From contig CANQTD010000002.1 of assembly GCA_947626685.1 (NCBI GenBank), forward strand, positions 1-64,000: DNA of 64,000 bases, in the 5' to 3' direction. The position numbers and the translations under genes were made by a program. Shown here piece by piece: positions 12,400 to 55,895 of this stretch (its first letter is position 1; each line of letters begins with the position of its first letter). Below the pieces are notes generated by a model. The model was not told the origin of the DNA and ran no database searches. It worked only from the letters and a program-made list of their open reading frames with translations. The stretch is from an uncultured Clostridia bacterium. GTDB taxonomy: Bacteria; Bacillota; Clostridia; Christensenellales; Borkfalkiaceae.

Positions 12400-13497
<1,098 letters not shown>

Positions 13498-13504
13498 TAC
13501 GAAA

Positions 13505-13525
13505 TTCCCCCGCAAAGCGGGGGAA
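13505..13525. terminator. hairpin between prfB and tsaD
   Basis: TTCCCCCGC and GCGGGGGAA form a perfect 9-bp stem with a 3-nt loop. A weak T-rich run follows further on, so it may attenuate rather than fully terminate. Confidence 0.5.
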
Positions 13526-13548
13526 CATTTGCATTTCTTTTCTGTTTT

Positions 13549-14559: not shown

Positions 14560-14592
14560 CCGCCGTCTTAAAAAGAAGAAAAATCACAAGAT

Positions 14593-14627
14593 CCGTCCGT
14601 TTGCAAAAAAGCAGCGGACGTATTTTT
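14593..14627 (+). terminator. probable terminator after tsaD
   Basis: GTCCG pairs with CGGAC and TGC with GCA around an A-rich loop, followed by TATTTTTG runs. Imperfect stem, so moderate confidence. Confidence 0.5.
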
Positions 14628-14681
14628 GCGTATTTTTGCGCTTTTTTGTCATAAATTGCAAATTTTTCTTTTCCAAGCCCC

Positions 14682-14710
14682 TTGAAATCCCAAGCCAAAT
14701 GTGCTATAAT
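14682..14710 (+). promoter_or_regulatory. promoter of the GH3 gene
   Basis: TTGAAA, 17-nt spacer, TATAAT. It leaves a leader of about 65 nt with AAGGAGA before ATG 14782. Confidence 0.85.
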
Positions 14711-14781
14711 CCTGTTTAGAGCTTCATAGGGATGAGGCCTTCCTTTTCTGCGAAAAGAATCTGATAAGGAGACGAAAATAA

Positions 14782-30300: not shown

Positions 30301-30606
30301 CACATTCACTTTCGGCGCTACGCCTTCCTGTTTGGCGAGGGGGAGCAGCCCGTCGTTCTTGAGGAGCACGGTGCCCTCTTTCTGGATCTGTTCCACAAGG
30401 TCTGCGCCCGCCGCACGGCTCACGCTGGTGTCGGCCCCCGTTTTGTAGCCGATGACAAACATGTCGATGGTGGGGGCGAAAATGCCGACCGCGATGTTGA
30501 GCGCGAGTACGACGGCGAGAATGATCGGCGTCAGCGTAAAGCAGATGATGCGGGAAACGAGCTTCCCGACGGAGAGCTTTGCGCCTTTCGGTTTCTTCTC
30601 TGACAT
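27367..30606 (-). CDS. membrane-anchored GH3 glycosidase with permuted domain order
   Basis: A 1079-residue protein. It starts with a membrane anchor (about 20-45, IICFTLTPIILAVVLALNIA), then the GH3 alpha/beta sandwich (EGTVLLKNDGLLPL...), then the fibronectin III-like domain (FPFGFGLSYTEFEW...), and only afterwards the catalytic barrel (NVELAYSMGLTVATE, GPAINLHRSPFGGRNYEY, then GAIITDYADYHDF with the nucleophile Asp). A second membrane segment lies near the C-terminus (YIPLLVGIDVIAVGGCAAWIVLTLVL). This swapped order is known from some rumen GH3 enzymes. The usual KHF motif reads KHL. ATG 30606 is chosen for GGAGG upstream; the frame runs on without a better start. Confidence 0.88.
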   Translation of the reverse strand: MSEKKPKGAKLSVGKLVSRIICFTLTPIILAVVLALNIAVGIFAPTIDMFVIGYKTGADTSVSRAAGADLVEQIQKEGTVLLKNDGLLPLAKQEGVAPKVNVFGWASVDWVFSGSGSGQARGNLDGSGGATKMWDLLSSLEDYGVEYNTELTDMYKAFQNRRNMASPYNAANSSGTLHSFNYEFSRLYEPKIDDYSAELLANAKAFSNTALVVIGRNSGESNDSPKKQYKKTLKSTGAASIDTTDTERTYLEISTEEEALLKYVGKNYENVVVLINSTNVIELGFLDKIEGLDACFLVATTGSAGARAIPKLLYGEYTPSGKTADTFAYDLSTSSTYVNVGSGIKNGNNGDDTTNFYSDTINGNKLYPTNHDHTNGSSNIKYTGVAYTDYAEGIYVGYKWYETADAAGFWNSLRAKEVWGVEGYDQVVQFPFGFGLSYTEFEWVVTKITPSNNAEIEEDTEIEIDVMVTNVGEHPGQDVVELYYTPPYHADQIEKSAVNLVAFAKTQQVLYPEGKYPADDAEHPSSETVTLKFKAGDMKSYDFEDKNNNGFKGYELEGGNYILSLRTDAHTPASDRIEGTTEITYRVTTGIQIFDDDVTGNEVKNRFTGSDATDGVAIDGNSDNTADITYLSRADFVGTFPYEQEENRTMDERIRALNLYTKEMAEDWDAKHDTAAIETGKDGEKIYDPQGGVTGGALTDLGKLIGDAENFDNDELWDTVLDQLTISEMQNLVLHGYLKTSALSSIGKPQTLDVDGPNQVSSFYDKFDGTTGFSSIVLAQSWNVELAYSMGLTVATECAEHGINGWYGPAINLHRSPFGGRNYEYYSEDALISGLMSAKVVQAAKNGGVFSYLKHLCLYESESNRDGMYNWITEQALRETYIKPFEICIKEGGASGIMTSYGRIGAVWTGGSEALLTEVVRGEWGFKGAIITDYADYHDFMNGDQMVRAGGDIWMDGWNSNGSFAYGTSSNAFKASIRRASKDIIYMWANALTTQEEYNEKLENGEIDGVAIHTATRELNFRWYIPLLVGIDVIAVGGCAAWIVLTLVLPRKKKALAAPAEPMNPSEEPNGPNDSPNDN

Positions 30607-30685
30607 TGTTAAGTGATACCTCCGTTTTTTATTGTTTTGCCCGTCGCGCGCCCGCGCGACAAATAGCAAAAACTTACTTACCTAT

Positions 30686-37133: not shown

Positions 37134-37892
37134 TTATTCCCGTTCGCGGTACTCTGTCGGGGTGCATCCGACATACTTTTTGAAAAATTTATCGAAGAGA
37201 GTATGGCCTCCGCAACCGACCTGCTTGGCGATTTCGCTAACCGGGCGGTCGGTTTGCCGCAATAATTTTTGGGCTTCCGCCAATCTTGCATTTCTGACGA
37301 AAGATTGAAAAGACTGATGCAGTTCGTCTTTGAAAATGCGGTTGATCTGACCGTGGGTAAGATTGAATTGGTCGCAAAGAACTTGCAGGGTCAGCTTATC
37401 GGCAAGGTGTTCCGCAATGTAGTTCTCAATGTCAGGACCGTACTTTTTGCGCTTTGGTTTGATATTGGTCTTCGTCTCCTGGGCAAACTGCAACATGCCG
37501 ATTTCCGTGAGGGTCATTACAGATCTTATCCGCGTGGCATTGCAAACGATGAGTCCGTCTTGAAATTTATCACAGTATGGATCGGCACGGTCGCTATGAC
37601 GGAAATGGTCAAGGAAAATAAAGCCCGCCAACTCGTTTTTCAGATATACGGCTTTAGCGGCTGCGGCCTCATGTTTCCGCCAAAGGCGCATATTAAACTT
37701 GTGCGATGATTTAGAATTTTTCAAAAATTCGATGATCCTATCGTGTTCTTCTTCCATTGCTTCTTTTGGGTCGGAATAGGCCGCCGCTATTAAACGATAT
37801 TGACTGTCATATACCGAAATGGATAGCTTTGCAAGCCCTTGAACGCAGTTCATATAGGATTCCAGTCGTTTGATATCATATATTCTTTTCAT
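37134..37892 (-). CDS. AraC-family regulator with degenerate PocR-like sensor
   Basis: A 252-residue protein. The C-terminal ~100 residues form the AraC double helix-turn-helix (IENYIAEHLADKLTLQVLCDQF, then VSEIAKQVGCGGHTLFDKFFKKYVGCTPTEYR). The N-terminal part lines up with the PocR sensor of the neighbouring regulator (LSISVYDSQYRLIAAAYSD against VTITLFNRNLEPVCSGN; LKNELAGFIFLDHFRHSD against IDGQLVAYLMMGKFRDRD), but the conserved Cys-rich block of PocR is missing. It was probably a duplicate that lost or changed its ligand (inference). The start at 37892 lies only 9 nt after a -10 element. Confidence 0.85.
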   Translation of the reverse strand: MKRIYDIKRLESYMNCVQGLAKLSISVYDSQYRLIAAAYSDPKEAMEEEHDRIIEFLKNSKSSHKFNMRLWRKHEAAAAKAVYLKNELAGFIFLDHFRHSDRADPYCDKFQDGLIVCNATRIRSVMTLTEIGMLQFAQETKTNIKPKRKKYGPDIENYIAEHLADKLTLQVLCDQFNLTHGQINRIFKDELHQSFQSFVRNARLAEAQKLLRQTDRPVSEIAKQVGCGGHTLFDKFFKKYVGCTPTEYRERE

Positions 37893-37937: not shown

Positions 37938-38777
37938 TTATTTTTTATTTTGTTTTCTGTATTGTTCCATAGACATGCCGTTCTTCTTCTTAAATATCTT
38001 GTAAAAGTATTGATAGCTTTGAATTCCTGTATCCGCAATGATCTCCTGCAACGACATCTCTGTGTTGAGGAGCAAATGCTCCGCATGCGCGATCCGTTTG
38101 GCATTGATGTAGCCGACCAATGTATCGTTTAAATTCTTTTTCAGGAGTTCGCAAAGGGAACTTCTGTTAATGCAAAATTCCCGGCAGAGGGTCTGTATCG
38201 TGATTTTTTCGCGGAAGTGCTCGTTTATGTATTTTTCAATGGCTTTTGACATGGGCGTTCCAATGCTGATGGCGCCCGAGTCGCGGATGTAACAAATGAT
38301 CGCGTTGAAAACGGCCTTCACATATTCTATGGATGTCGCGTCTAACATGGGCAACTCGGCGTATGCGGAAAGCATGTAGTCTATAGCAAGTTTATATTTA
38401 TCGGCCGTATCTTTGACCAATTCCTCCGAAGAATAGAATTTATCACGATCCCGGAATTTGCCCATCATCAAGTACGCGACAAGCTGCCCGTCGATCCGGA
38501 TAGGCGTCACGGCCTCCGCGATTCCCGCGTGACAAGTATAGATCCACGGTTCGGTGTACTTTTCCGATTTTTTGGCATTCTCACGGTTGCATGCTTCGCA
38601 CGCCTTGAGTCGGGACTCATCTTCACCGATGGCAAGGCAATAATCTGTATATTCACTTGCATTCCCGCTGCAAACGGGTTCGAGATTCCTGTTGAATAGC
38701 GTGATCGTCACATTCGTTAGGGAATAGAATGCGTTCAGGATGAGTCCGAGCTTTTCAGTGTCAAATTCGATATTCAT
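37938..38777 (-). CDS. AraC-family regulator with PocR sensor domain
   Basis: A 279-residue protein. Residues 1-160 are a PocR domain, a PAS-like small-molecule sensor: FYSLTNVTITLFNRN, then KACEACNRENAKKS and IYTCHAGIAEAVTPIRIDGQLVAYLMMGKF, where the three cysteines are conserved. The C-terminal AraC domain (IEKYINEHFREKITIQTLCREF ... SLQEIIADTGIQSYQYFYKIFKKKNGMSMEQYR) binds DNA. It is divergent from galT, so it probably activates the galactan locus in response to a sugar. The candidate operator is the ACGATTG pair seen at 38853 and 43980. Confidence 0.9.
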   Translation of the reverse strand: MNIEFDTEKLGLILNAFYSLTNVTITLFNRNLEPVCSGNASEYTDYCLAIGEDESRLKACEACNRENAKKSEKYTEPWIYTCHAGIAEAVTPIRIDGQLVAYLMMGKFRDRDKFYSSEELVKDTADKYKLAIDYMLSAYAELPMLDATSIEYVKAVFNAIICYIRDSGAISIGTPMSKAIEKYINEHFREKITIQTLCREFCINRSSLCELLKKNLNDTLVGYINAKRIAHAEHLLLNTEMSLQEIIADTGIQSYQYFYKIFKKKNGMSMEQYRKQNKK

Positions 38778-38811: not shown

Positions 38812-38852
38812 ATGGAATTTGTATATTTTATGTCAAAATCAGTAAAAAACTT

Positions 38853-38881
38853 ACGATTGATATATGTTTATCGGACGATTG
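38853..38881 (+). promoter_or_regulatory. candidate AraC operator upstream of galT
   Basis: Two direct repeats ACGATTG at 38853 and 38875, 22 bp apart (two helical turns), in the frame TTACGATTGATATA...GGACGATTG. The same arrangement recurs at 43980. The second repeat ends 27 nt before the -10 of galT, the position where class II AraC activators sit. Confidence 0.75.
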
Positions 38882-38942: not shown

Positions 38943-40415
38943 ATGATAGAAGTATATCGATCTCTCGAGGCGCTTGTACGCTATGCCGAGAAAGAATTGT
39001 ATCTGTCGAAAAAGAACATAGACTATGTTCGCAACAGCATATTTCGCTTGTTTGGACTGGATGCATATCCCGGATCGGTGCAAGATGCAGATGTAGAGGA
39101 CGAGACTCCGGAAAGGTTGCTTGATGCGTTGATTGAGGCAAGTATTTCTGCGGGGCTGTTCGAAGCGCAAGAAGCGGAATATTACCGTGACGCTATTATG
39201 GGCGAGCTAATGCTTTCGCCCAAGGATGTGCAGTACATTTTCGAGAAAAGACGCGAGGCAGAGGGGAGTGAGGCCGCGCTTGGGTGGTTTTACGATTACA
39301 GCGTCAAGGGCGACTATGTGAAGAAAGCCGTTCTCGACAAGAATCCGCGCTTCTCATCGCAGGGACTTATCATCACCATCAATAAGGCAAAGCCGGAGTT
39401 CCGCGATCCCAAGAAGGCGGTCAGCGGGAACTCCACCAAGACGGGCTATCCCAAGTGCAATATTTGCCACGAGAATGAGGGCTTTGCGGGAAGGAATAAG
39501 CGTACCCTTCGGACGATCGACATTACGCTTGGCGGGCAGCCGTGGTTTTGGCAATACTCGCCTTACGGATATTTCAAAGAGCACGGCATTGCCGTCAATT
39601 ACAAGCACACGCCAATGTATATCGACCGCGGCACTTTTACGCGGCTCATGGATTTTGTGGATATGTTTCCCGCCTATTTTATCGGTTGTAATGCGCCGCT
39701 TGAGCGTATCGGCGGGAGCGTCCTTGCCCATGACCATTATCAGGGCGGCGGTGAGATTCTTCCCATGCACAAGGCCGGTGCAGCCTATACCCTGCACAGC
39801 CCAAGCTATTCCGATGCAATCGTTGAAGTGGTGGATTGGGCAGGAACGGTCGTCAGAATCGTTTCGAAATCCCGTAGCGATATTGAAGAGATCGGCGAGA
39901 GCATCCGTGCGAAATGGGTCACTTACGAGGACCGCGCGCTCGGCATCATTCCCGAAGATGAGAAGGGTGTCCACAATGCGATCAGTCCGACGGTCGTCAG
40001 GACGAAGCGCGGCTATGAGATGAGTATCATTCTCCGCAGCAATATTACAAGCGAACAGTATCCCGATGGCGTGTTCCACGCCCATCCCGAATATCATATG
40101 ATCAAAAAGGAGTCTATCGGGCTCATCGAAGCGCAAGGACTCTTTATACTTCCCGGCAGACTTGAAGCACAACTCGGCGAGATCGAAACACTCATTTCAG
40201 ATGGGAAGCCGCTTCCCGAAACCCTTCAAGAGTTCAAACTTGTCTATGACGATGTGACGGAACGTGTGGGGTCAACCTCGGACATGGGTAGGGTGAAGGC
40301 CGCCATGCGCGAGGAATTGGGAGCGATTTGCAACGCGATACTTGACAATACTGCTGTATTTAAGGATAAACGGCAGACCATTGCATTCATGAATGATTTG
40401 GGGTTCTACGCATGA
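38943..40415 (+). CDS. galT: UDP-glucose--hexose-1-phosphate uridylyltransferase, class II GalT
   Basis: Exchanges UMP between UDP-glucose and galactose 1-phosphate in the Leloir pathway. The 490-residue length and motifs mark the Bacillota class II form: KNIDYVRNSIFRLFGL near the N-terminus, GYPKCNICHENEGFAGR and GGSVLAHDHYQGGGEILPMHKA with the catalytic His-rich site. The last 4 nt overlap galK (ATGA). The promoter with the AraC operator is directly upstream. Confidence 0.95.
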   Translation: MIEVYRSLEALVRYAEKELYLSKKNIDYVRNSIFRLFGLDAYPGSVQDADVEDETPERLLDALIEASISAGLFEAQEAEYYRDAIMGELMLSPKDVQYIFEKRREAEGSEAALGWFYDYSVKGDYVKKAVLDKNPRFSSQGLIITINKAKPEFRDPKKAVSGNSTKTGYPKCNICHENEGFAGRNKRTLRTIDITLGGQPWFWQYSPYGYFKEHGIAVNYKHTPMYIDRGTFTRLMDFVDMFPAYFIGCNAPLERIGGSVLAHDHYQGGGEILPMHKAGAAYTLHSPSYSDAIVEVVDWAGTVVRIVSKSRSDIEEIGESIRAKWVTYEDRALGIIPEDEKGVHNAISPTVVRTKRGYEMSIILRSNITSEQYPDGVFHAHPEYHMIKKESIGLIEAQGLFILPGRLEAQLGEIETLISDGKPLPETLQEFKLVYDDVTERVGSTSDMGRVKAAMREELGAICNAILDNTAVFKDKRQTIAFMNDLGFYA

Positions 40416-41536
40416 TGAATAAATCCGATTACCGTTTTGAAGTTTCAGCAGCAGGAAGAGTCAATCTCATCGGAGAGCACGTCGATTATTGCGGCGGGAA
40501 AGTTTTGCCTTGCGCGCTTTCCCTTAAATGTACTGTCTATGCCCGCCCCAACGGGTCGGATTTTATCAATCTTTGTTGGAGCGATCTGCTCGACAAAGTA
40601 TCGCTCGATATCCGGGAGTTAAATCAATACCGCGAGCTGAAACATGCAAAGTATCAGGCGGGCTGTGCCTATTTTTGGCGGGAGGCGGGGCATGAATTGA
40701 AGGGATGTGATCTTCTGATCGATTGCAAAGTTCCCTTCGGCAGCGGGCTTTCATCCTCTGCGGCGATCGAGGTCGCAACGCTCGGTGCTCTTGCCGTGAT
40801 TGCCGGTGAAATTCCCGATCCGGTGGAAATCGCGCTTCTCGCACAAAAGGCGGAGCGTGAGTTTGCGGGCGTGAACTGCGGAATCATGGATCAGTATGCC
40901 TCGGCTTGCGGGAAGAAAGATCATGCCATGCTCCTTGATTGCAAAACGCTGAAATGCGAACAAATTCCCGTTAAAACGGGCGAATATTCCCTCCTGATCA
41001 TCAATACCAATAAGCCGCATAGTCTCATCGAAAGCAAGTATAACGAACGGCGTGAAGAAACGGAGATGGCATTTTCCCTTTTGAAACGCAAAATGGATAT
41101 TGACTGCCTGGCAGATGTCAGACCTTTCCGTCTTGTGGAGTACCGAACAAGTTTACCCGGGATAATTTATCGCCGCGCAAAGCATGTCGTCGATGAATGC
41201 GAGCGCGTTCGGCTTGCGGTGGAAGCCATGCAGAACGGGGATATGAAACGACTTGGTCAACTACTAATGGAATCGCACATGTCCCTTGCCGACTTTTATG
41301 AAGTGACGGGAAAGGAACTCGATTGCCTCGCACATGCTGCATGGGATCACCCTGCTTGTGTTGGGGCGCGCATGACAGGGGCGGGTTTTGGCGGTTGTAC
41401 TATCAATCTTGTAAAATCGAATGCAATCACAGATTTTAAGCGTAAGGTCTGCTATCGGTATATGCAAGAAACGGGTTACGAGGCAATCTGCTACGATGCA
41501 GAGATCGCTGACGGCTTAACTTATAAAAAATTGTAG
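40412..41536 (+). CDS. galK: galactokinase
   Basis: Phosphorylates alpha-D-galactose at C1 with ATP. The 374-residue GHMP kinase shows the galactokinase signature AAGRVNLIGEHVDYCGG at the N-terminus, the ATP loop PFGSGLSSSAAIEVA near 105-120 and the late RMTGAGFGGCTINLV. ATG overlaps the galT stop, so the two are translationally coupled. Length is typical. Confidence 0.95.
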   Translation: MMNKSDYRFEVSAAGRVNLIGEHVDYCGGKVLPCALSLKCTVYARPNGSDFINLCWSDLLDKVSLDIRELNQYRELKHAKYQAGCAYFWREAGHELKGCDLLIDCKVPFGSGLSSSAAIEVATLGALAVIAGEIPDPVEIALLAQKAEREFAGVNCGIMDQYASACGKKDHAMLLDCKTLKCEQIPVKTGEYSLLIINTNKPHSLIESKYNERREETEMAFSLLKRKMDIDCLADVRPFRLVEYRTSLPGIIYRRAKHVVDECERVRLAVEAMQNGDMKRLGQLLMESHMSLADFYEVTGKELDCLAHAAWDHPACVGARMTGAGFGGCTINLVKSNAITDFKRKVCYRYMQETGYEAICYDAEIADGLTYKKL

Positions 41537-41551
41537 GGGGAAGGTAAGAGC

Positions 41552-42568
41552 ATGAAGATTTTGGTGACAGGTGGTGCGGGATATATCGGCTCCCATACTT
41601 GCGTGGAGCTTCTCGAAAGCGGGCATGAAGTTGTCGTCGTTGATAACTATTCCAACGCTTCTCCCGAAAGTCTCAGGCGTGTGGAACAAATCACGCAAAA
41701 GAAGATTTCCGTCCACGAAGGAGATGTGCGCGACAAGACATTGCTTTCGCGCATCTTCGAAGGACAAAAGATAGATTGGGTCATTCACTTCGCGGGGCTG
41801 AAAGCGGTGGGGGAATCCTGCCGAAAACCCATTGAATATTATGACAACAATATTGGCGGTACGCTTGCACTTTTGGACGTCATGCGCGGACATGGGTGCA
41901 GGAAAATCGTTTTTTCCTCGTCTGCGACCGTCTACGGCACGCCCGAAAAGTTGCCGCTCGACGAGAGCTGTAAGGTGGGCGGCACGACCAATCCATACGG
42001 CACAAGTAAGTACATGCAGGAGCTGATTCTGAAAGATGTTTATGCCGCCGATCCCGAGTGGACAGTGGTGTTGCTCCGTTACTTCAACCCTGTCGGCGCG
42101 CATGAGAGCGGGCTCATCGGCGAGGACCCGAAGGGCATTCCCAACAATCTTACGCCATATATCGCGAAGGTCGCGATTGGCAAGCTGAAAGAGGTCGGTG
42201 TTTTTGGAAACGATTACCCCACGCCCGACGGAACGGGGGTCAGAGACTATATCCATGTCGTGGACCTTGCAAAAGGGCATGTCGCTGCCATCGATAAAAT
42301 CGAGAAAGCGGGCGTTTACACCTATAATCTCGGCACGGGGAAGGGTTACAGTGTTCTTGACGTAATTCATGCGTTTGAGAAAGCATGTGGACATCCGCTT
42401 CCCTATGCCATCAAGCCGAGACGGGCGGGTGACATTGCCGAGTGCTTCTCGGATGCTTCGAAAGCGGAGCGCGAACTTAGCTGGAAGGCGCAGTTCGGCA
42501 TTGACGATATGTGCGCATCCCTTTGGAATTGGCAAAAGAAAAATCCAAACGGTTACGATCCGCGCTAA
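41552..42568 (+). CDS. galE: UDP-glucose 4-epimerase
   Basis: Interconverts UDP-galactose and UDP-glucose. The 338-residue short-chain dehydrogenase has the NAD loop VTGGAGYIGSHTCVELL, the catalytic SSSATVYG and YGTSKYMQE (Ser and Tyr-x-x-x-Lys), and LLRYFNPVGAHESG. It lies 15 nt after galK with GGGGGAAGG as ribosome site. It would also supply UDP-galactose to Glf. Its last codons are duplicated in the downstream gap. Confidence 0.96.
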   Translation: MKILVTGGAGYIGSHTCVELLESGHEVVVVDNYSNASPESLRRVEQITQKKISVHEGDVRDKTLLSRIFEGQKIDWVIHFAGLKAVGESCRKPIEYYDNNIGGTLALLDVMRGHGCRKIVFSSSATVYGTPEKLPLDESCKVGGTTNPYGTSKYMQELILKDVYAADPEWTVVLLRYFNPVGAHESGLIGEDPKGIPNNLTPYIAKVAIGKLKEVGVFGNDYPTPDGTGVRDYIHVVDLAKGHVAAIDKIEKAGVYTYNLGTGKGYSVLDVIHAFEKACGHPLPYAIKPRRAGDIAECFSDASKAERELSWKAQFGIDDMCASLWNWQKKNPNGYDPR

Positions 42569-42878: not shown

Positions 42879-43856
42879 ATGAGAGATGGGGCCAAATCGG
42901 AAGTGACGCATATCATCGGCAATGAGTTTTTGACTGTTGCGGTATCGAACCTCGGGGCTGCGATCCGGTCGCTGCGTTTGGGCGGGAAGGAACTTTGTTT
43001 AGGTTTTTTGTCCCAGAAGGAGCGGATCGAAAGCGGAACGTATTGCGGCGCAGTCATCGGGCGCGTTGCGAACAGGATCGCGGACGGGCAGTTTATCTTG
43101 AACGGCACAACTTATTTTTTGACGAAAAACGACAGGGGAAACACACTTCACGGCGGGATCAATGGTTTTGACCGCCGTTTTTTTGATGTCGCATATCCAA
43201 ACGGTATCCTTACAATGACGCTTTGCAGCCCGGACGGCGATCAGGGTTTCCCCGGGAAGCTTAACCTGCGCGTGGAGTTCGTTTTGGAAAGAATGTCGCT
43301 CACCGTTCGCTTGACTGCGGCCAGCGATGCGGAAACCGTTTGGGCGCCCACCATTCACCCGTATTTTTGCTTGGGAGACAAGCCAACGGTCGATGATACA
43401 TATCTTCAAATATTTGCGGATGCCTATACGCCGATGGACGGACGGCAGATCCCGACGGGGGAGTTGAGTTCCGTCGAAGGAACTTCCTTCGATTTCAGAG
43501 AACCGAAAAAGATCGGCAGAGATATTGGCGACAAGGTATTGTCGTCAACAAACGGTTATGATCATAACTTTGTCTTGCGTGACAGTCATGCCGCGACCGC
43601 ATATAACGAAAAGAGCGATATAAAAATGGATATCTATACCGATATGCCCGGCCTGCATTTTTATTCCGGAAATTACTTAAATGGGTTTGACGGCACGCAT
43701 GATCTTCATCCGCGAGAGGGGTTTGCGTTGGAGCCGCAGTTTTTCCCCAACGCCGTTAACACACCCGCTTTCAAGCAGCCGATTTTGGAACGGGGGAGAG
43801 AAAAAACATACTTTATTCGTTATGAATTCGGCATCGGAAGTCCAATTTTGAAATGA
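42879..43856 (+). CDS. galM: aldose 1-epimerase (galactose mutarotase)
   Basis: Interconverts alpha and beta anomers of galactose so that GalK can use it. The 325 residues show the mutarotase pattern: VAVSNLGAAIRSL, YCGAVIGRVANRIADGQF, NTLHGGINGFDRR with a catalytic His, and ATIHPYFCLGD-like TIHPYFCLGD with the second His; a late YSGNYLNGFDGTH holds substrate residues and the general base region. GGGGG precedes ATG 42879. It lies 310 nt after galE, probably in the same transcript. Confidence 0.93.
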   Translation: MRDGAKSEVTHIIGNEFLTVAVSNLGAAIRSLRLGGKELCLGFLSQKERIESGTYCGAVIGRVANRIADGQFILNGTTYFLTKNDRGNTLHGGINGFDRRFFDVAYPNGILTMTLCSPDGDQGFPGKLNLRVEFVLERMSLTVRLTAASDAETVWAPTIHPYFCLGDKPTVDDTYLQIFADAYTPMDGRQIPTGELSSVEGTSFDFREPKKIGRDIGDKVLSSTNGYDHNFVLRDSHAATAYNEKSDIKMDIYTDMPGLHFYSGNYLNGFDGTHDLHPREGFALEPQFFPNAVNTPAFKQPILERGREKTYFIRYEFGIGSPILK

Positions 43857-43979
43857 AGCGCATGGCGCACATTTGACCAAAAAGGAAGGGTTTTGTTAAA
43901 TTCCATCATTGCAGCGCGGGCAAAATTGATCGGAATGATTGTTTGAAGTTAAATTCGAAAAATATTGTACAAATTTCTT

Positions 43980-44008
43980 ACGATTGATATAATTTTTTCT
44001 GACGATTG
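43980..44008 (+). promoter_or_regulatory. candidate AraC operator upstream of the 625-residue gene
   Basis: Direct repeats ACGATTG at 43980 and 44002, 22 bp apart, within CTTACGATTGATATA...TGACGATTG. Sequence and spacing match the galT operator at 38853. The second copy ends 27 nt before the -10 below. Confidence 0.75.
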
Positions 44009-44041: not shown

Positions 44042-44132
44042 GTGTAATGTAAAAATATGTAAAATAAACGAAATTTGGAGATCCGTGCCGTAATTTTGTT
44101 TCTCATTCGGCGAGGATTTGGAGGACAGATCT

Positions 44133-46010
44133 ATGAGCAAATTGGCACTGAATATTATTCATCGTCCCGAGCTTTCGCCGGAGTATGCGGAGAGGGCGCT
44201 CGGCGGAAAGAGGGACGTGCAGGATGAATCGTTGGATATCTTTCTGTTTCAACAGGAATGCGCCCATGAATGCGGACTGAAAACAACGATCCAGATCACT
44301 TATGCGTCTCTTTTTTCAGATAAAATCGTGAAGATCGCAAAAGAACATCACACAAAGTACGGCGATGAAATCGGTTTATCTCTTCTCGGACTTCCCTGCA
44401 AGCAGTTTAAGGAGAAGTATAAGACCGAGGATTTCTGCATTTGGATGTTCGACGAAGAAACGAAGAAAGAGATCGTTGACGACTGTTTCGGGCTGTTCTA
44501 TGAGAAATTCGGTTTCTATCCCGAATCTACGGGCAGCTATTTCCTCGACGCATTCACAATCAACTACATGAAAGAAAAGTATCCGAACGTGAAATGCGCC
44601 GTTGCGACCTGTTGGGAGGAGGGTCCGAAAGCATATCATACTTGCAATAATAGTTGGTACACGTTTATGGACGGCGGCCCGTGGAACCCGTGGATCCCGT
44701 CGAAAGTCAACTCCCACTGTCCGGCGAGCGACAAGGAGGACGATAGCGGCATCGTTGCGATCCCGCACCTGTCTCGCGATCTCATGGCGTGTTTTGACGG
44801 GAACGGAAGCAATTTCGGCACGCACCCGCAGAACGTCTTGCGCGGCATGATCTACTACGAGGACGAGAAAGGGACGGAATATCCTTACCTCTACAATCTC
44901 ATTGACCAGTATCGGCATCTTGCCAAGTACAACGATGGATTCTGCTACAACATGATGTTCGTGGGACCCGGTTGGCTGAACAAGGCGGGGCGTTGGGAAT
45001 CGCCCTACGAACGCCTCGCCAAGTCGTACAAGGATGTCATGAAGTACTACGGTAAACTCAAGCGTGAGGGGAAATGCGTCGATATGACGATGAGCGAACT
45101 CGCCGACTATTACCGCAGTACCCATAATTATCACGACCCCGAAAGTGCTTTATGGAAAGACATCCTTTACGGGAGCGATAAAGAATATTTTTGGTATGCA
45201 GATTGGCGCATGCGTTGCTGCCTCGATTTCAATCAGGGCGGCGCGATAATCGATCTTCGTCCCTATATTGCCCGTATTCCCCAAAAAACGGGGATCGGGA
45301 CGGAAAATGTATATGACGCATCCTATCCCTATCTGATTCAGGCAAATTACCGAGCGGGGTATTTTACGCACTATGCGGGCGCGGGAACGATAGAATCCTG
45401 CAAAGTTCATTATAAGGGACAAACCGCCGACCTGTGCCTCTGCCGTACAATGGCATCCTTTGAAAGATTTCCGAACGGGATTCAGATCAAAACCAATCCC
45501 GTTACGGTTTCCCTTGCGGGATTGGATATAGTCATTCAATCCACCTTCTTTTTCCCGAATTGCTCATGCGGAATCATCAATATCAAGCGAGAGATCCTCA
45601 ATGATCTGCATGGGGAAGAAGTCGAACTTGAAGAGTATTTTACGGGAGGATTCGGGACAACGGAGTATCAACCGGACATGTCGAAGATCCGTTTCGAAAC
45701 ATATCGTTTTGTGCTCCGTGACGATATTCCCAATCCGCTATTTCCCGATTGCGGTGTATTGCGGGAAGAAAAAGAGGAAATGCAATTCGCCTATAAGGGC
45801 AGAAAAATCGGGCAAGGGCAGGGAAGAACAAATGGCGCTTTTGCCATAATTCCCGACATACAGACGAAAGTGGGATTGAATGGCGACGAGGCGGATGCCT
45901 GTTCCGCAGAAGAGGGAATTGCATTCTCGCCCGTTTACCATCTTCGCATCAGTAAGAAATTGAAAGGAGGCGAGTTCAGAACATGGCTCAGTCTGGAAAA
46001 GGCAAATTGA
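44133..46010 (+). CDS. unrecognised 625-residue cytoplasmic protein of galactan locus
   Basis: No family is recognised with confidence. There is no signal peptide or membrane segment. The N-terminal ~320 residues have an alternating beta/alpha pattern with HHTKYGDEIGLSLLG, FYEKFGFYPESTGSYFLDAF and AVATCWEEG, which recalls the seven-stranded barrels of polysaccharide deacetylases and GH57/GH38 enzymes. The C-terminal ~270 residues look beta-rich (YFTHYAGAGTIES, VSLAGLDIVIQ). It is rich in Trp, Tyr and Cys. The gene is first behind the second AraC-controlled promoter and precedes a GH53 and an ABC importer, so a role in processing galacto-oligosaccharides is likely (inference). ATG 44133 follows GGAGG; an in-frame TTG at 44118 overlaps that site. 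Confidence 0.7.
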   Translation: MSKLALNIIHRPELSPEYAERALGGKRDVQDESLDIFLFQQECAHECGLKTTIQITYASLFSDKIVKIAKEHHTKYGDEIGLSLLGLPCKQFKEKYKTEDFCIWMFDEETKKEIVDDCFGLFYEKFGFYPESTGSYFLDAFTINYMKEKYPNVKCAVATCWEEGPKAYHTCNNSWYTFMDGGPWNPWIPSKVNSHCPASDKEDDSGIVAIPHLSRDLMACFDGNGSNFGTHPQNVLRGMIYYEDEKGTEYPYLYNLIDQYRHLAKYNDGFCYNMMFVGPGWLNKAGRWESPYERLAKSYKDVMKYYGKLKREGKCVDMTMSELADYYRSTHNYHDPESALWKDILYGSDKEYFWYADWRMRCCLDFNQGGAIIDLRPYIARIPQKTGIGTENVYDASYPYLIQANYRAGYFTHYAGAGTIESCKVHYKGQTADLCLCRTMASFERFPNGIQIKTNPVTVSLAGLDIVIQSTFFFPNCSCGIINIKREILNDLHGEEVELEEYFTGGFGTTEYQPDMSKIRFETYRFVLRDDIPNPLFPDCGVLREEKEEMQFAYKGRKIGQGQGRTNGAFAIIPDIQTKVGLNGDEADACSAEEGIAFSPVYHLRISKKLKGGEFRTWLSLEKAN

Positions 46011-46243
46011 ATTATCGCTGCCCGCGTTGCTTTATGCGGGACATCGACATGGATATGTTTTTCGATGAAGAAAAAAAAGAGTATTACTGCTTGCGTTGTT
46101 GTTTCCGCGGCAGCGAAGAAGAGGTTTTGAAGCTCAATGACCAGTACAAAGAAAAATACGGCAGGCTCAAAGAGCGGGTCGTTGATTTCGGAACCGACAA
46201 CGAACCCCCTAAATTTATCCCGCATAGAGCGGGAGAACAATAA
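45983..46243 (+). CDS. small zinc-ribbon protein
   Basis: An 86-residue protein with two pairs of cysteines, YRCPRCFMRD (near 12-15) and YYCLRCCFRG (near 35-39), which form a classical zinc ribbon. The rest is a charged helix and a short tail. No enzymatic motif. Its start lies 28 nt inside the upstream gene, with AAAGGAGG as ribosome site, so the two are tightly coupled and may act together. Function unknown. Confidence 0.75.
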   Translation: MAQSGKGKLNYRCPRCFMRDIDMDMFFDEEKKEYYCLRCCFRGSEEEVLKLNDQYKEKYGRLKERVVDFGTDNEPPKFIPHRAGEQ

Positions 46244-46258
46244 GCGAGGCAAAAAATT

Positions 46259-47389
46259 ATGAGACTTGGAATTGACGTCTCCACATATTTGGAGGAACTT
46301 GAACATGGCGCCAAGTACTTTGACGGAGGTAGGGAGGTGGATCCGCTCGATCTTTTCCGTTTGAATGGCGTAGACGGTATGCGTATCCGACTTTGGGTGG
46401 ATCCGAAGTCGGAGGACGGCAAACCATATCTTGCGGGCAACTGCGATCTCGGCAACTTTCTTCGTCTTGCCAAACTCGCAACGGGCAAGGGATACAAAAT
46501 CATGCTCGACTTCCATTACTCCGACTTTTGGGCAGACCCCGGCAAACAGATCATCCCAAAGGCATGGCAGGGGCTCGGCCCGGAAGCTCTCGCCGAAAAG
46601 GTATATACCTATACGGCAGAAACGCTCAAAGCGATCAAAAAAGAGAGAATCGACCTTGAATACATTCAAGTCGGCAACGAAATCACGAACGGGATGCTTT
46701 GGCCCGTCGGAAAACTCATTGAACAGCCGGGCGGTTCCCGTACCAACTATGAGAACCTTATCACGCTCTATAAGGCAGGCGTTAAGGCGTGCAGGGAAGT
46801 ATATCCGAAAGCCGCGATTATCCTGCACCTTGAGAGGAGTTACGATCAAAAGGTTTACAGCGAATATTTGACGCAAATGCAGGAGGCGGGCGTCGATTAC
46901 GACATCATCGGCTACAGCTATTATCCTTACTGGCACGGAACATTCGACATGTTCTTCGCGAACGTCGATATGTGCAAGAAGTTCGGAAAAAGGCAGATGG
47001 TCGTGGAACTCGGCTATGCGTTCACTGCAGAGGATTATGTCAAAAACGAACACGGCGGGGCGCAGCTCATCGTCAGCGAGGAGAATATGGCGACGCTCGG
47101 TTTCACCCAAGAGTATCCCCTTTCGCGCGAAGGGCAGGTGCATTTTATCGAGGATTTCTTAAAACTTGCCAAGCAGCACGGCATCGAGGGTGTCTATTAT
47201 TGGGAGCCGCTCTGGATCCCCGGAGACGGGATCTGCTGGGCGTCGGAAGAGGCGATGGAATACACGGGCGACGCAAAGCGGTATGCCGAGGCGGGGAAGG
47301 AGAAGTCCACACGCAACGAATGGGCAAACCAATGTCTGTTCGATTACGAGGGACAGAAACTTCCCGCGTTCGACAAGTATAAAATTTGA
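46259..47389 (+). CDS. cytoplasmic GH53 endo-beta-1,4-galactanase
   Basis: A 376-residue GH53 enzyme without signal peptide. Family marks are GMRIRLWVDP, IMLDFHYSDFWADPGKQ, the acid/base Glu141 in IQVGNEITNG and the nucleophile Glu250 in MVVELGYAFT. It should cut imported beta-1,4-galacto-oligosaccharides, whereas the paralogue at 53.2 kb works outside. Lack of a signal peptide in a GH53 is uncommon; GH53 proteins are mostly secreted. The ribosome site is weak (GCGAGG). It belongs to the transcript starting near 44.05 kb. Confidence 0.9.
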   Translation: MRLGIDVSTYLEELEHGAKYFDGGREVDPLDLFRLNGVDGMRIRLWVDPKSEDGKPYLAGNCDLGNFLRLAKLATGKGYKIMLDFHYSDFWADPGKQIIPKAWQGLGPEALAEKVYTYTAETLKAIKKERIDLEYIQVGNEITNGMLWPVGKLIEQPGGSRTNYENLITLYKAGVKACREVYPKAAIILHLERSYDQKVYSEYLTQMQEAGVDYDIIGYSYYPYWHGTFDMFFANVDMCKKFGKRQMVVELGYAFTAEDYVKNEHGGAQLIVSEENMATLGFTQEYPLSREGQVHFIEDFLKLAKQHGIEGVYYWEPLWIPGDGICWASEEAMEYTGDAKRYAEAGKEKSTRNEWANQCLFDYEGQKLPAFDKYKI

Positions 47390-47480: not shown

Positions 47481-47518
47481 ATGTGAATAAGCAAATAAAC
47501 AAACAAGGAGGCAAAATT

Positions 47519-48772
47519 ATGAAAAAACGGTTACTGATGATCGTCATGAGCGCTTTGATGATCGTGCCGGTTGTTTGCGGTCTCGTGGGATGCAACAAAG
47601 GCGGCGATTACGACTATTCGATCACTGTTTGGGTCGGCGAGGGGACGGATACGCTCACCAAACAACAGATCGAACGCTTCAACGAGACGAATGAGGATGG
47701 CATCAAGTTCAAGGCAACGGTTGAAATCGTCAGCGAATCCAAAGCCGCGGGCAATGCCATTTCCACGCCTGCGTCCTGTGCGGATATTTTCTGTTTCGCG
47801 CAGGATCAGCTCGCGAGGGTTGTCCATTCCAATCTCCTGATGCCGCTCAATACGGGTTCGGTCAAGTCGATCACGGAAAATTGCGACGAGGCTTCCATTG
47901 AAGCCGCAAAGATCGGAGGGACGCTTCGGGCTTTTCCCTTCACGAAGGACAACGGATACTTCATGTACTACGATAAGCGTGTCGTAAAGGAAGAGCACGT
48001 CGGAAGTCTCGAAGATATTCTCGCCGATGTCGAATCCTATAAGGATAGCTCGGGGAAGGGCAGGAATTTCTCCATGAATCTTACCGAGGACGGCGGGAGT
48101 TGGTACTCCGCATCTTTCTTTTATGCGACCGGTTGCAAGTCTGAATGGACGACGGATGATAGCGGGAATTTTATCGATTATGATGATACTTTCCTTTCCG
48201 ATGAGGGAGTAATCGCACTGAAAGGATTGCAGAAAGTTCTCAAATTCTCAAAGTACATCTCTTCCGCAGAAGTTGCAGATCTGAGCGCGGCAACTCCCTC
48301 CGCAGTCGTCGTGTCGGGTATTTGGGGCTACAAGGCGGCACAGCAGGCTTTGGGCGATAATCTCGGCGTTGCGCCGCTTCCCTCATTTACGGTGGACGGA
48401 GAAAGCTATCAGCTCGTGTCCTACCTCGGCAGCAAGCTCATGGGCGTGAAACCGCAGAGCGATCCTTACCGTGCGGCATATCTGCAAAAGCTCGCGATTT
48501 TCCTGACAAGCGAAGAATGCCAGAAAGAACGCTTCGAGACGGTTGGTTGGGGTCCCTCAAATGCCGAGGCGGCGAAGGAGGCTTCCTCTCCCGCGCTTGA
48601 TGTGCTTTTGAAGCAAGCTAAGACGACGTTGCAGGGGCAGTATCCGACGAATTGGTGGGCAAAGCTCGACACAATGGTTGGGAACGCAATGACAAGCGAA
48701 GGCGACGATGCGTCGCTCAATGCACTTTTAACGACGTATAACAACGCGCTTAACGATTTGAAAAGATCGTAA
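47519..48772 (+). CDS. sugar ABC transporter substrate-binding lipoprotein
   Basis: A 417-residue solute-binding protein of the maltose/oligosaccharide class, lipid-anchored outside the membrane (signal MKKRLLMIVMSALMIVP, lipobox GLVGC). Family pattern: ITVWVGEGTDTLTKQQIERFNE, GTLRAFPFTKDNGYFMYYDKRVV and late LYLQKLAIFLTSEECQ-type helix. It should capture galacto-oligosaccharides for the two permeases downstream. ATG 47519 follows AAGGAGG; an upstream in-frame GTG at 47483 is not favoured. Confidence 0.92.
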   Translation: MKKRLLMIVMSALMIVPVVCGLVGCNKGGDYDYSITVWVGEGTDTLTKQQIERFNETNEDGIKFKATVEIVSESKAAGNAISTPASCADIFCFAQDQLARVVHSNLLMPLNTGSVKSITENCDEASIEAAKIGGTLRAFPFTKDNGYFMYYDKRVVKEEHVGSLEDILADVESYKDSSGKGRNFSMNLTEDGGSWYSASFFYATGCKSEWTTDDSGNFIDYDDTFLSDEGVIALKGLQKVLKFSKYISSAEVADLSAATPSAVVVSGIWGYKAAQQALGDNLGVAPLPSFTVDGESYQLVSYLGSKLMGVKPQSDPYRAAYLQKLAIFLTSEECQKERFETVGWGPSNAEAAKEASSPALDVLLKQAKTTLQGQYPTNWWAKLDTMVGNAMTSEGDDASLNALLTTYNNALNDLKRS

Positions 48773-48783
48773 GACGGAGAACT

Positions 48784-50814
48784 ATGATGAGTAAGAGGGG
48801 AAAAATAACGGAGCTGGAAATCGGCGGCGAAATGCTTCCGATGCGGCTCTTCATGAAGTTTACATACCGAGGCGAAAAATACGCAGCTTTTACGCCTGCT
48901 TACCGTGCGAGCTCTTCCGATGAGGGGGAGGTCGCACTTACGCATATTGTTTCGGTTAAAACCAAGAGCGAGAACTACACGGAACGTAAAGTGCTTTTCG
49001 CAATGTTCACATGCATCATTCATATTGTCATGATGCTTTGTGCACTGTGCGCGACGCTCGTCTTTGTCCTTTCTCCCGACCTTTGGTGGGTCGGAATGAT
49101 GATGATCATCGTTGGTGCGGCCGATTTCGTCATGCTCATTCCTTTTCACCGTGCGTATGCGCTTATCCAAAAAAATCAAAAACCGCGAACGAAATCCCGA
49201 ACGACTTATTACAAAGTGATTCCTTGCGAAGGAAGCGACGAGCTCTTTGCCGAATTTGAAATACATTTCCAAATTTTGGAGAAACTCTCAAAGAATCTGC
49301 CGCTTTCGATGCTGGAGTATCAACGCTTGAATTTTGGTCGGAAGATCCTTTATAAGACGAAAATGTTTTTCCTCGGGATCCCTAAGTGGGTCGCCGGCAA
49401 ATTCGTAAAACTCGGTCTTTTGATCAAGCATTTCGGGGTCTCGGTGTGGGATAATATCAAGGATGTCGTCATGACCTTCAAAAACGGCAGTTGGAAAACG
49501 AGAGTCAGCTATCTTGTAATGGGCTTCGGGAATCTGATGCACAAACAATGGTTGCGCGCGCTCGTGTTCTTCCTGTTTGAAGTGGCGTTTATCGGCTATA
49601 TGGCAATGTGGGGCGGCGCGTGGCTCGGAAAGTTCGGTTCGCTCGGCACAATCGCAACGATCGAACAATACGATCCCATTCTTGACGTTACAACAACCGT
49701 TCATGTCGACAACTCATTCAAGATCCTGCTGTACGGACTTATCACGATCTTCTTTATCGTTGCGTTCGTTTACACTTGGCGGTTGAACGTCAAGCAGTGC
49801 CGCATTCTCGATGAGCTTTCGGCTAAGGGTGAGAAGATAAAGACGAGCAAAGAGGATGTTCAGGATCTCGCGGATAACGAATTCCACAAGACTTTTCTTT
49901 CACTTCCCGTGGTCGGCTTTGTTATGTTTACCGTTTTACCGATCATATTCATGATCCTTGTCGGCTTCACGAGCTACGATTATGAAGCGGACGGATACAA
50001 CAACCTCTTTTCTTGGGTAGGGCTGGATAACTTCAATCAGATACTGACTTTCGGCTCAAAATTGTCCCTCGCTTTCGGCGAAATTCTTGCGTGGACGCTT
50101 ATATGGGCAGTCTTTGCGACGTTCTCCAACTACTTCCTCGGAATGTTCGTCGCGATGATGATCAACAAGAAGGGGATCAAGATCAAGAAGTTTTGGCGGA
50201 CGATCCTTGTTTTGACGATCGCTATCCCGCAATTCATCTCGCTTCTGTATGTGTCGAATTTGTTCGCGGATAACGGCATTGTTAACGCAACGCTCATGAG
50301 CTGGGGCTGGATCAATGCGCCGATTCCGTTTTGGGGAGACGGAACGCTTGCAAGAATCATGGTGCTTGTCATTAACCTCTGGGTGGGGATTCCATATCTC
50401 ATGCTCACTACGACAGGCATTTTGATGAACATTCCGCAGGATCTGTATGAATCTGCCCAAACCGACGGCGCAAATGCATTCCAACAATTCTGCAAGATCA
50501 CAATGCCCTATATGCTGTTTGTCACTGGGCCGTATCTTCTGAACAGCTTTGTATCAAATATCAACAACTTCAATGTCATTTATCTGCTGACGCAAGGCGG
50601 TCCCGCAAATTTTGCGTGGGGCGACGTCGGCGGGTATATCGCGGGCGACACAACCATTCTCATCACTTGGCTCTTCGGGATCACGACGGGGAGCGAAGCG
50701 AACTATAAGATGGCGTCTGTGATCGGTACGATGATCTTTATCGTTATTTCGGTGCTGTCGCTCATCGTTTTTACAATCATGCCTTCTACAAGGCGGGAGG
50801 AGGACTACTCATGA
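48784..50814 (+). CDS. sugar ABC permease (MalF type) with large N-terminal extension
   Basis: The C-terminal ~280 residues are a standard MalF-like permease with the EAA loop ESAQTDGANAFQQFCKITMPYM, which contacts the ATPase. The protein is 676 residues, far longer than usual Bacillota homologues (about 300). The extra N-terminal part has a small cytosolic beta-rich domain (about 5-65, LEIGGEMLPMRLFMKFTYRGEKYAAF) reminiscent of DUF1292, two membrane segments (about 70-120), a basic amphipathic region and two further membrane segments (about 255-335). It overlaps the next gene by 4 nt. Confidence 0.9.
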   Translation: MMSKRGKITELEIGGEMLPMRLFMKFTYRGEKYAAFTPAYRASSSDEGEVALTHIVSVKTKSENYTERKVLFAMFTCIIHIVMMLCALCATLVFVLSPDLWWVGMMMIIVGAADFVMLIPFHRAYALIQKNQKPRTKSRTTYYKVIPCEGSDELFAEFEIHFQILEKLSKNLPLSMLEYQRLNFGRKILYKTKMFFLGIPKWVAGKFVKLGLLIKHFGVSVWDNIKDVVMTFKNGSWKTRVSYLVMGFGNLMHKQWLRALVFFLFEVAFIGYMAMWGGAWLGKFGSLGTIATIEQYDPILDVTTTVHVDNSFKILLYGLITIFFIVAFVYTWRLNVKQCRILDELSAKGEKIKTSKEDVQDLADNEFHKTFLSLPVVGFVMFTVLPIIFMILVGFTSYDYEADGYNNLFSWVGLDNFNQILTFGSKLSLAFGEILAWTLIWAVFATFSNYFLGMFVAMMINKKGIKIKKFWRTILVLTIAIPQFISLLYVSNLFADNGIVNATLMSWGWINAPIPFWGDGTLARIMVLVINLWVGIPYLMLTTTGILMNIPQDLYESAQTDGANAFQQFCKITMPYMLFVTGPYLLNSFVSNINNFNVIYLLTQGGPANFAWGDVGGYIAGDTTILITWLFGITTGSEANYKMASVIGTMIFIVISVLSLIVFTIMPSTRREEDYS

Positions 50815-51851
50815 CGGACAAACAAGATGAAAGCGGCGAGGTGTTTGAGTTCTATGGCACCTCTCCCTCAAATGGGAAAAGCACGGAGATCGAAATCCTG
50901 CTTCCGGAAGGTAAGAACGCCGATGAATATAACGATTTGCCCGTACCTTCATTCGGCACGATCCCGAGATATGCGGAGGAAGCACCCAAAAAGGAGCGCA
51001 TTTCCCAAAAGACGAAAGACAGGATCGGAAAGATCGCGATATACATTGTGCTTTCTTTGATGAGTCTCATTTGGATCCTGCCGTTCGTCGGGATCCTTCT
51101 TGAATCATTCCGCTGTGAAAGCACGGGACTTGCCGGCTATCTTATTCCGAAGCAGTGGGGGTTTGATAATTATGTCCGTCTGTTTACGTTTCAGGATGGG
51201 ATCTTCCTGAAGTGGTACGGCAACACTCTGATGATAGGGTGCGTGACGGCAATCGTGCAGACGGCATTTCAGCTTGCGACAGCCTATGTTCTTTCTCGGT
51301 TCCGATTTAAGGGGAGAAAACTCCTGATGAATCTCATCCTTGTGTTCGGAATGTTCCCGGGATTTTTGACGCTCATTCTCTTATACACTTGGATGCACGA
51401 TTGGAACTTGACGGACGCGAATGCGCCGTATGGCCTCATGATCATCTACTGTGCGAGTTCGGGAATGGGCTATTATATTGCAAAGGGATTCTTCGACACA
51501 ATATCCAAATCCCTTGATGAGGCGGCGAGGGTGGACGGCGCGTCGCAAATGCAAGTCTTTTTCAAGATCATTTTGCCTCTCTCGAAGCCAATCGTGATTT
51601 ATTCGATTCTGATGGGCTTCATGGCTCCGTGGGGCGATTTCGTCATGGCGACGTTCATGGCAAACAATGCCTCGGCGGGATATAACGTCGCCGCGGGTCT
51701 GCAATGGCTGATTACAGATTCGATGAAAAACGAATATTATACGACATTCTGTGCCGGCGGCGTCGTCGTGGCGGTTCCCATTACGGTTTTGTTCCTGTTG
51801 TTGCAAAAATATTATGTCGCAGGTGTGACCGGCGGCGCAGTAAAAGGATAA
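50811..51851 (+). CDS. sugar ABC permease (MalG type)
   Basis: A 346-residue inner-membrane permease with six membrane segments and the EAA loop DEAARVDGASQMQVFFKIILPLSKP. It pairs with the MalF-like protein to form the channel. An unusual acidic cytosolic N-terminus of about 70 residues (EVFEFYGTSPSNGKSTEIEILLP) precedes the first membrane segment. ATG overlaps the stop of the upstream gene (ATGA), so the two permeases are coupled. Confidence 0.92.
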   Translation: MTDKQDESGEVFEFYGTSPSNGKSTEIEILLPEGKNADEYNDLPVPSFGTIPRYAEEAPKKERISQKTKDRIGKIAIYIVLSLMSLIWILPFVGILLESFRCESTGLAGYLIPKQWGFDNYVRLFTFQDGIFLKWYGNTLMIGCVTAIVQTAFQLATAYVLSRFRFKGRKLLMNLILVFGMFPGFLTLILLYTWMHDWNLTDANAPYGLMIIYCASSGMGYYIAKGFFDTISKSLDEAARVDGASQMQVFFKIILPLSKPIVIYSILMGFMAPWGDFVMATFMANNASAGYNVAAGLQWLITDSMKNEYYTTFCAGGVVVAVPITVLFLLLQKYYVAGVTGGAVKG

Positions 51852-51861
51852 GGTGAAAAAT

Positions 51862-53136
51862 ATGGCAGAAGTAGAGCTTATAGGCGTAAAAAAGGTTTAC
51901 GGCAAGAATGTGGTTGCCGTAAAAAACTTCAATCTCAAGATCAAAGATAAGGAGTTTGTCGTATTTGTCGGACCTTCGGGGTGCGGCAAGTCTACGACGC
52001 TCCGCATGATCGCGGGACTTGAGGACATCACGGACGGGGTAGTCAAGATCGGCGGCAGGGTCGTCAACAATCTGAAACCAAAGGACAGGGATGTTTCGAT
52101 GGTCTTTCAAAATTATGCCCTGTATCCGAACTATACGATTTTCAAGAATGTCTCTTTCCCATTGACGCTCAAAAAAATCCCTGTGGAAATACCCGTTAAG
52201 GATAAAGAGGGCAATGTGCAAAAGGTCAGGGTCAAAAAGCGCAAATTGACCGCGAAAGAAATTACCAAACAGGTGCAAGACGCTTCAGAGATCCTTAAAA
52301 TCACACAGTATTTGGGAAGAAAGCCGAGGGAACTTTCGGGAGGACAGAAACAGCGCGTTGCGATCGGCCGTGCGATGGTGAAGAACGCATCGGTGTTTCT
52401 GCTCGATGAGCCGCTTTCCAATCTCGATGCACAGCTCCGCGCAGAGATGCGCTCCGAGCTCATCAAGCTCCGCGAAAGAATCGATACGACTTTCATCTAT
52501 GTCACGCACGACCAGGTGGAGGCGATGACGCTTGCAGATAGGATCGTCATCATGAAAGACGGGGTGATCCAACAAGTCGGTACGCCTGCGGAACTGTTTG
52601 ACATGCCTGCCAACCTGTTTGTCGGAGGATTCATCGGATCGCCCAAGATGAACACTTTCAAAACGTACCTTGATCGGGACGAAAGGGGGTATTTTATCAA
52701 TCTCTGCGGCGTGGAAAAGAGGATCACGGGTGAGCGCGGCGAAGCGTTCAAAATGAAAGATGTGGCACCGCAAGATACGATCCTCGGTGTGCGCCCCGAC
52801 CATATCACGCTTTCCAATCATGAGGATCCGGAGGCGATTCCTTGCGTAATCAGCGTGAGAGAGTTTATGGGTTCCTCCTTGCATCTCCATGTAACGACTC
52901 CGACGGGAGAGGAATTGATCGTATGTGTTCCGACAATGCCGCTTGACCGTAACCAAATTGCGAAACTGGTATCGGGAACCCGCGTTTATATTTCGTTTGA
53001 AAGTAAGGTGATGCACTTTTTCTCGGCGGAAACGCAAGTCAATCTCCTTGTGGACGATGCTCCGGTCGTGGAAAACAAGGTAGAGACTGAGGAGTTAACG
53101 GACAAACCGCGTAAGAAATGGCGGCGTATTTCTTAA
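51862..53136 (+). CDS. sugar ABC transporter ATPase, MsmX/UgpC type
   Basis: A 424-residue ATPase that powers the MalFG-type importer. Walker A GPSGCGKSTTLR, Q-loop MVFQNYALYP, signature LSGGQKQRVAIGRA, Walker B VFLLDEPLSNLD and the switch His in YVTHDQ are all present; the C-terminal ~150 residues are the TOBE-type domain. Between Q-loop and signature there is an insertion of about 20 charged residues (VKDKEGNVQKVRVKKRKL) that typical MsmX lacks. Start ATG 51862 with AAGGTG upstream; an in-frame GTG at 51853 overlaps this site. Confidence 0.95.
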   Translation: MAEVELIGVKKVYGKNVVAVKNFNLKIKDKEFVVFVGPSGCGKSTTLRMIAGLEDITDGVVKIGGRVVNNLKPKDRDVSMVFQNYALYPNYTIFKNVSFPLTLKKIPVEIPVKDKEGNVQKVRVKKRKLTAKEITKQVQDASEILKITQYLGRKPRELSGGQKQRVAIGRAMVKNASVFLLDEPLSNLDAQLRAEMRSELIKLRERIDTTFIYVTHDQVEAMTLADRIVIMKDGVIQQVGTPAELFDMPANLFVGGFIGSPKMNTFKTYLDRDERGYFINLCGVEKRITGERGEAFKMKDVAPQDTILGVRPDHITLSNHEDPEAIPCVISVREFMGSSLHLHVTTPTGEELIVCVPTMPLDRNQIAKLVSGTRVYISFESKVMHFFSAETQVNLLVDDAPVVENKVETEELTDKPRKKWRRIS

Positions 53137-53163
53137 TTTTATAAAGCAAAGAAGGTGAATATT

Positions 53164-55731: not shown

Positions 55732-55895
55732 AGGTTTCAAAGGAGCCTTTCTTAAAATAAAAGGAGCGTGATAATTATGGTATAAGAAATGAACGTGCAA
55801 AGCACAAGGTGTATCTATTGAACTGTTCGACGAAGCGTTCCGATGAGGAATGCGAACCAAAAAAAATCCAATTAAAATTTCAGGAGGAATCTATT
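55732..55895 (+). other. leader region before giant surface protein
   Basis: About 160 nt with small hairpins (GTGCAAAGCAC; GCGTTCC/GGAATGC) and AGGAGG before ATG 55896. No gene of useful length. The frame of the next gene is open through part of it but begins after the ribosome site. Confidence 0.4.

Follow-up and report, generated by a model that had tools for sequence, protein, structure and literature searches.

The DNA stretch analysed in this work (the window, 64,000 nt) contained genes for an outer and an inner GH53 galactanase, an importer and the full Leloir pathway, all of them already claimed in a preliminary description of the locus (Table 1). The window contained exactly two copies of the 15-mer CTTACGATTGATATA (expected number 0.06), one upstream of galT and the other upstream of the gene called here P625, and both copies were embedded in a longer shared block. 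This repeat supports the second AraC-controlled promoter proposed earlier in front of P625, and suggests that the galT and P625 units are probably controlled by one AraC-type regulator.

Table 1. Features of the locus. Positions are counted from the first nucleotide of the window.
Feature	Position	Strand	Remarks
Second AraC-family regulator	37134..37892	-	
PocR-type AraC-family regulator	37938..38777	-	
Candidate AraC site upstream of galT	38850..38864	+	CTTACGATTGATATA
Leloir genes galT, galK, galE	38943..42568	+	
galM, aldose 1-epimerase	42879..43856	+	
Candidate AraC site upstream of P625, identical	43977..43991	+	CTTACGATTGATATA
P625	44133..46010	+	625 aa; predicted GH57/deacetylase-type alpha/beta barrel (residues ~1-340) and mutarotase-like beta sandwich (~340-625)
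p86	45983..46243	+	86 aa, CxxC...CxxC (zinc-ribbon-like); starts inside P625, overlap 28 nt
GH53 endo-beta-1,4-galactanase, cytoplasmic	46259..47389	+	PF07745, E 1e-93; no signal peptide
Importer sugar-binding lipoprotein	47483..48772	+	SBP_bac_8
Two importer permeases	48784..51851 (48784-50814, 50811-51851)	+	BPD_transp_1
MsmX-type ABC ATPase	51853..53136	+	ABC_tran, TOBE_2
Secreted GH53 galactanase with bacterial Ig domains	53155..55731	+	

Other genes of the window included two for GH3 proteins. One GH3 gene (27367-30669, minus strand) showed the C-terminal domain profile before the N-terminal one, a domain-swapped order, and GH3 genes resembling it occur elsewhere in the host genome. A 977-aa protein with a SIR2_2 domain was encoded beside the regulators (33912-36845, minus strand) and might be a defence gene. 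The gene behind the outer GH53 (55809-58583, plus strand) has a 924-aa product that combines InlB-type B repeats with leucine-rich repeats of the BspA type; homologues of this protein are encoded at the same place in locus L069.

The P625 open reading frame comprised 625 codons and a TGA, from an ATG at 44133 to the stop at 46010, with a GGAGG approximately 8 nt upstream of the ATG; an in-frame TTG exists at 44118, but the orthologues start at the ATG instead. The protein had been described as unrecognised, and the profile searches agreed: no Pfam or NCBIfam family, and no DUF, matched it above chance, the GH2, GH35 and GH42 profiles and the polysaccharide deacetylase profile of Pfam gave no match, and no close relative was present among PDB sequences. 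P625 was the only member of its family in the host genome. Neither P625 nor the inner GH53 had a hydrophobic N-terminus and both therefore look cytoplasmic, the location previously attributed to P625.

An 86-codon open reading frame absent from the preliminary description, p86, overlapped the end of P625, by exactly 28 nt in all 35 complete loci, and usually had its own Shine-Dalgarno sequence placed inside P625. The two CxxC pairs of p86 (C13, C16, C36 and C39) were invariant in 18 sequences. Searched alone, the p86 profile matched 16 places in 15 of the 391 genomes of the class, every one of them (16/16) directly behind a P625 relative, including the intermediate relatives described below (32-37% identity). 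A programmed frameshift fusing both proteins is unlikely: there was no canonical slippery heptamer in the overlap, and p86 usually has the Shine-Dalgarno sequence mentioned above. The structural model of p86 was of low confidence and gave no fold match below E 0.8; the best structural matches were nucleic-acid binders, none of them significant. We infer that p86 is a bound, metal-carrying partner of P625, and propose that this partner is obligate, P625 being the candidate catalytic subunit.

The AlphaFold model of P625 was of medium confidence (pLDDT 71.5, pTM 0.77), with several poorly predicted segments, including residues 159-183, 213-259 and 276-290. Foldseek searches with this model gave the GH57 4-alpha-glucanotransferase of Thermococcus litoralis as the top three hits (1k1x, 1k1w), 1k1x being the first, over the whole length (E 2e-13). 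As P625 is predicted to do, this enzyme has an N-terminal deacetylase-type barrel followed by a beta sandwich; however, identity was 9-11%, the TM-score was 0.24-0.27 and the arrangement of the domains differs, so that, the TM-scores being low, domain order agrees better than domain arrangement. Further matches included galactose mutarotases, LacZ entries and deacetylases, two of which (3rxz and 3qbu) matched the barrel. Judging from how long the alignments are and how helices and strands succeed one another, the mutarotases would correspond to the C-terminal half of P625 and the deacetylases to the N-terminal half. The prediction of a GH57/deacetylase-type barrel with a mutarotase-like beta sandwich behind it is thus well supported, and it bears out the barrel and beta-rich second half proposed earlier; the model and the fold search support a fold class, not a chemistry. 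The GH57 profile (PF03065) did not match P625 or its relatives at E <= 1.

Seventeen residues were invariant in close and intermediate members of the family: N7, E79, C160, E162, E163, H212, R215, D216, H231, N234, R237, D258, E322, R361, D374, R376 and R407. Several of them belong to the loops that follow strands 5 and 6, and many conserved residues sit in loops modelled with pLDDT below 50. In GH57 the catalytic residues are a Glu closing strand 4 and an Asp of conserved region 4. In P625, strand 4 ends in D139, which was kept in 33 of 34 relatives. D222 resembles the Asp of GH57 region 4, yet was absent from the relatives with 32-37% identity, and was rejected as its counterpart. The C-x-E motif (160-162) was matched by C-K/R-E-Q in most distant members, as read by eye from the alignment.

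Close orthologues of P625 (55-92% identity) were present in 36 clostridial genomes: the window, 25 contigs from a genome scan, two genomes of the same family and eight found via p86. Intermediate relatives of similar length (32-37% identity, loci L098-L103) were in other glycan loci, without GH53, one of which has GH42, GH31 and GH78 genes. L099 also has a gene for a glycyl radical enzyme resembling pyruvate formate-lyase (12862-14811), in the neighbourhood of a P625 relative and of a gene similar to raffinose synthase. Distant relatives (approximately 510-560 aa, 16-21% identity) had GH78, GH20, GH5 and GH3 genes among their neighbours, and comparison of the profiles showed them to be homologous (hhalign probability 99.8, E 5e-29, 326 columns).

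A GH53 gene was present on the analysed stretch in 34 of the 36 close orthologues, the other two being on contigs of 5.2 and 3.4 kb. Within the host family, P625 was present in five of the seven genomes with GH53 and in none of the other 294 (301 genomes, Fisher p = 1e-9, uncorrected for the relatedness of the genomes). The five were precisely the genomes with the small inner GH53; the two GH53-containing genomes without P625 each had a single other GH53. The usual gene order in the relatives of the host was P625, p86, GH53, binding protein, two permeases, ATPase and outer GH53, and in another group the GH53 and importer genes preceded P625. Locus L002 additionally contained the arabinose genes as a complete set, with araA, an aldolase and a kinase. 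The tie of P625 to galactan use is strong. P625 represents a family that is new and unclassified, belongs to the GH57/deacetylase-barrel class and is linked both to galactan use and to p86.

The window yielded no beta-galactosidase of family GH2, GH35 or GH42, as previously stated; the lone match to the GH42 profile was a weak cross-hit of a GH5 gene. The galactose-release families sought in the host genome (approximately 1.78 Mb, in stretches) were GH1, GH2, GH35, GH42 and GH112, the last without a working control: tblastn found no GH1, GH35 or GH42, and GH35 and GH42 were likewise absent from the profile searches. The single GH2 found in the genome was encoded away from the locus (contig C13, L068 241-2028), and was a 595-aa protein of unassigned specificity with 23% identity to LacZ and UidA. 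Regarding a beta-galactosidase elsewhere in the genome, a point raised in the preliminary description, GH1, GH35 and GH42 are therefore set aside and this GH2 is left.

The 22 handles for genomes with P625 corresponded to 21 distinct genomes (one contig is common to G297 and G317). Strong GH42 matches were present in two of them, GH35 in one and GH2, from weak to LacZ-like, in 15, while four of the 21 genomes (G046, G297, G301 and G303) had no match to the GH2, GH35 and GH42 profiles; completeness was known for G046 (94%) and G297 (91%). The GH42 gene was within the P625 operon in G305 and G307, GH42-like genes adjoined P625 in L091 and L096, and GH2 and GH35 genes adjoined it in L092. The proposal that P625 stands in place of a beta-galactosidase thus fits the host, where GH1, GH35 and GH42 are absent and a single GH2 occurs, but not these five orthologous loci, and P625 as a general replacement of the canonical enzymes was rejected. 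Across the galactan loci of this type P625-p86 is therefore universal and the canonical enzyme optional, as would be expected if P625 were a galactosidase of overlapping activity, and equally if it served another step.

The following route is proposed for the locus. The secreted GH53 would cut pectic beta-1,4-galactan, the importer would take the oligosaccharides into the cell and the inner GH53 would shorten them; P625 and p86 would then remove galactose from the short galacto-oligosaccharides, and GalM, GalK, GalT and GalE would take on the released galactose. P625-p86 probably helps to cut imported galactose chains to single sugars in galactan-eating gut Clostridia. That P625 is an enzyme, and in particular a beta-1,4-exo-galactosidase, is the reading we infer from its context; an undescribed cytoplasmic family of exo-beta-1,4-galactosidases removing galactose from short galacto-oligosaccharides is put forward tentatively, at somewhat under an even chance. 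With the same reserve, exo-beta-galactosidase may be considered the likeliest single activity, ahead of action on decorations, phosphorolysis, deacetylation and a non-enzymatic role, some of the probability being left unassigned. It is more doubtful that P625 and p86 represent a new two-protein glycoside-cleaving family, a GH57/deacetylase-type barrel turned to beta-1,4-galactosides and needing a co-encoded zinc-ribbon partner, and that other glycan loci hold sister pairs which differ in specificity.

The substrates of GH57 enzymes are alpha-glucans or alpha-galactosides, and the GH57 and GH38 enzymes known to us are alpha-acting, which counts against a beta-galactosidase. The alpha-acting nature of the barrel class would suit an enzyme that attacks decorations of the imported galactan pieces, or another linkage in them (for example arabinose caps or another alpha-linked sugar), galactobiose being cut by the inner GH53 or by GH2, GH3 or GH42 enzymes encoded elsewhere. 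Such a role would also agree with the co-occurrence of GH42, GH35 or GH2 genes with P625 in five loci, the arabinose genes of L002, with same-sized open reading frames at the same place in L005 and a kinase of the same kind in L092, and the varied glycan loci of the P625 relatives. It is nevertheless rather unlikely: P625 also occurs where a galactan locus has no arabinose genes, and the four genomes lacking GH2, GH35 and GH42 matches have P625. A galacto-oligosaccharide phosphorylase giving galactose 1-phosphate is less probable still, since galK and galM point to the handling of free galactose (though both would be required for the reducing-end unit in any case) and we know of no phosphorylase with a barrel of this type; the points in its favour are the cytoplasmic location of P625, its proximity to galT, the ATP that anaerobes save by phosphorolysis, and the lack of GH112 (PF09508) matches in the 22 genomes with P625, a search that gave no signal in the control genomes either.

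A carbohydrate de-O-acetylase or deacetylase acting on the imported galactan pieces would agree with the barrel matches to 3rxz and 3qbu, but it is very unlikely, considering that the whole-length match of P625 was GH57, with the C-terminal sandwich, that no deacetylase profile of Pfam matched, and that acetylation is not a notable feature of beta-1,4-galactan side chains. Finally, P625 and p86 might form a sugar sensor or regulator and not an enzyme, p86 binding nucleic acid or polymerase, in line with its best, non-significant structural matches; small CxxC ribbons are often nucleic-acid binders. The many invariant polar and charged residues of the P625 barrel, its glycosidase-like two-domain fold and the existence of separate AraC-type regulators at the locus make this the least probable of all, and hardly credible.

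P625 points to an unannotated step in the use of pectic galactan by gut Clostridia, and to a putative enzyme family which is absent from Pfam and NCBIfam and whose members seem bound to a small protein of the CxxC type. Should the activity be confirmed, the family would be new among glycoside-active proteins and unusual in its obligate partner, and one could predict the use of galactan in genomes which now seem to be without the last enzyme.

Small zinc-ribbon subunits are known from other enzymes: acetone carboxylase gamma and the D subunits of UbiD-type decarboxylases. p86 would resemble them in being a small CxxC protein encoded beside its enzyme, but the enzyme classes differ; we know of no GH57 enzyme with a CxxC partner, and a literature search for zinc-ribbon partners of glycosidases found nothing useful.

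The DUF3863 structure 3lm3 ranked first among 177,635 PDB sequences for two disjoint profiles of the P625 family (E 0.09 and 0.025, both weak and short of the cut-off), the shared stretch being part of the barrel only. PF12979 (DUF3863) did not match P625 itself and matched one distant relative weakly (16.7 bits vs. a cut-off of 27); searches of the host genome and of genomes of the phylum with PF12979 were silent, as were their controls. No paper on function was found in literature searches for DUF3863 and 3LM3.

The GH53 loci of Roseburia and E. rectale, as listed, contain GH2 or GH42 (PMC5320581). Another comparison is the gan operon of B. subtilis (ganSPQAB), which likewise combines a GH53, an importer and one cytoplasmic galacto-oligosaccharide enzyme, the GH42 beta-galactosidase GanA, which cuts galactobiose to galactose (PMC5472308). 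The P625 locus differs from it in its extra inner GH53 and in the unrelated P625-p86 pair found in the GanA slot, a position which, by analogy and as an argument from position only, would assign P625 the place of GanA in the window.
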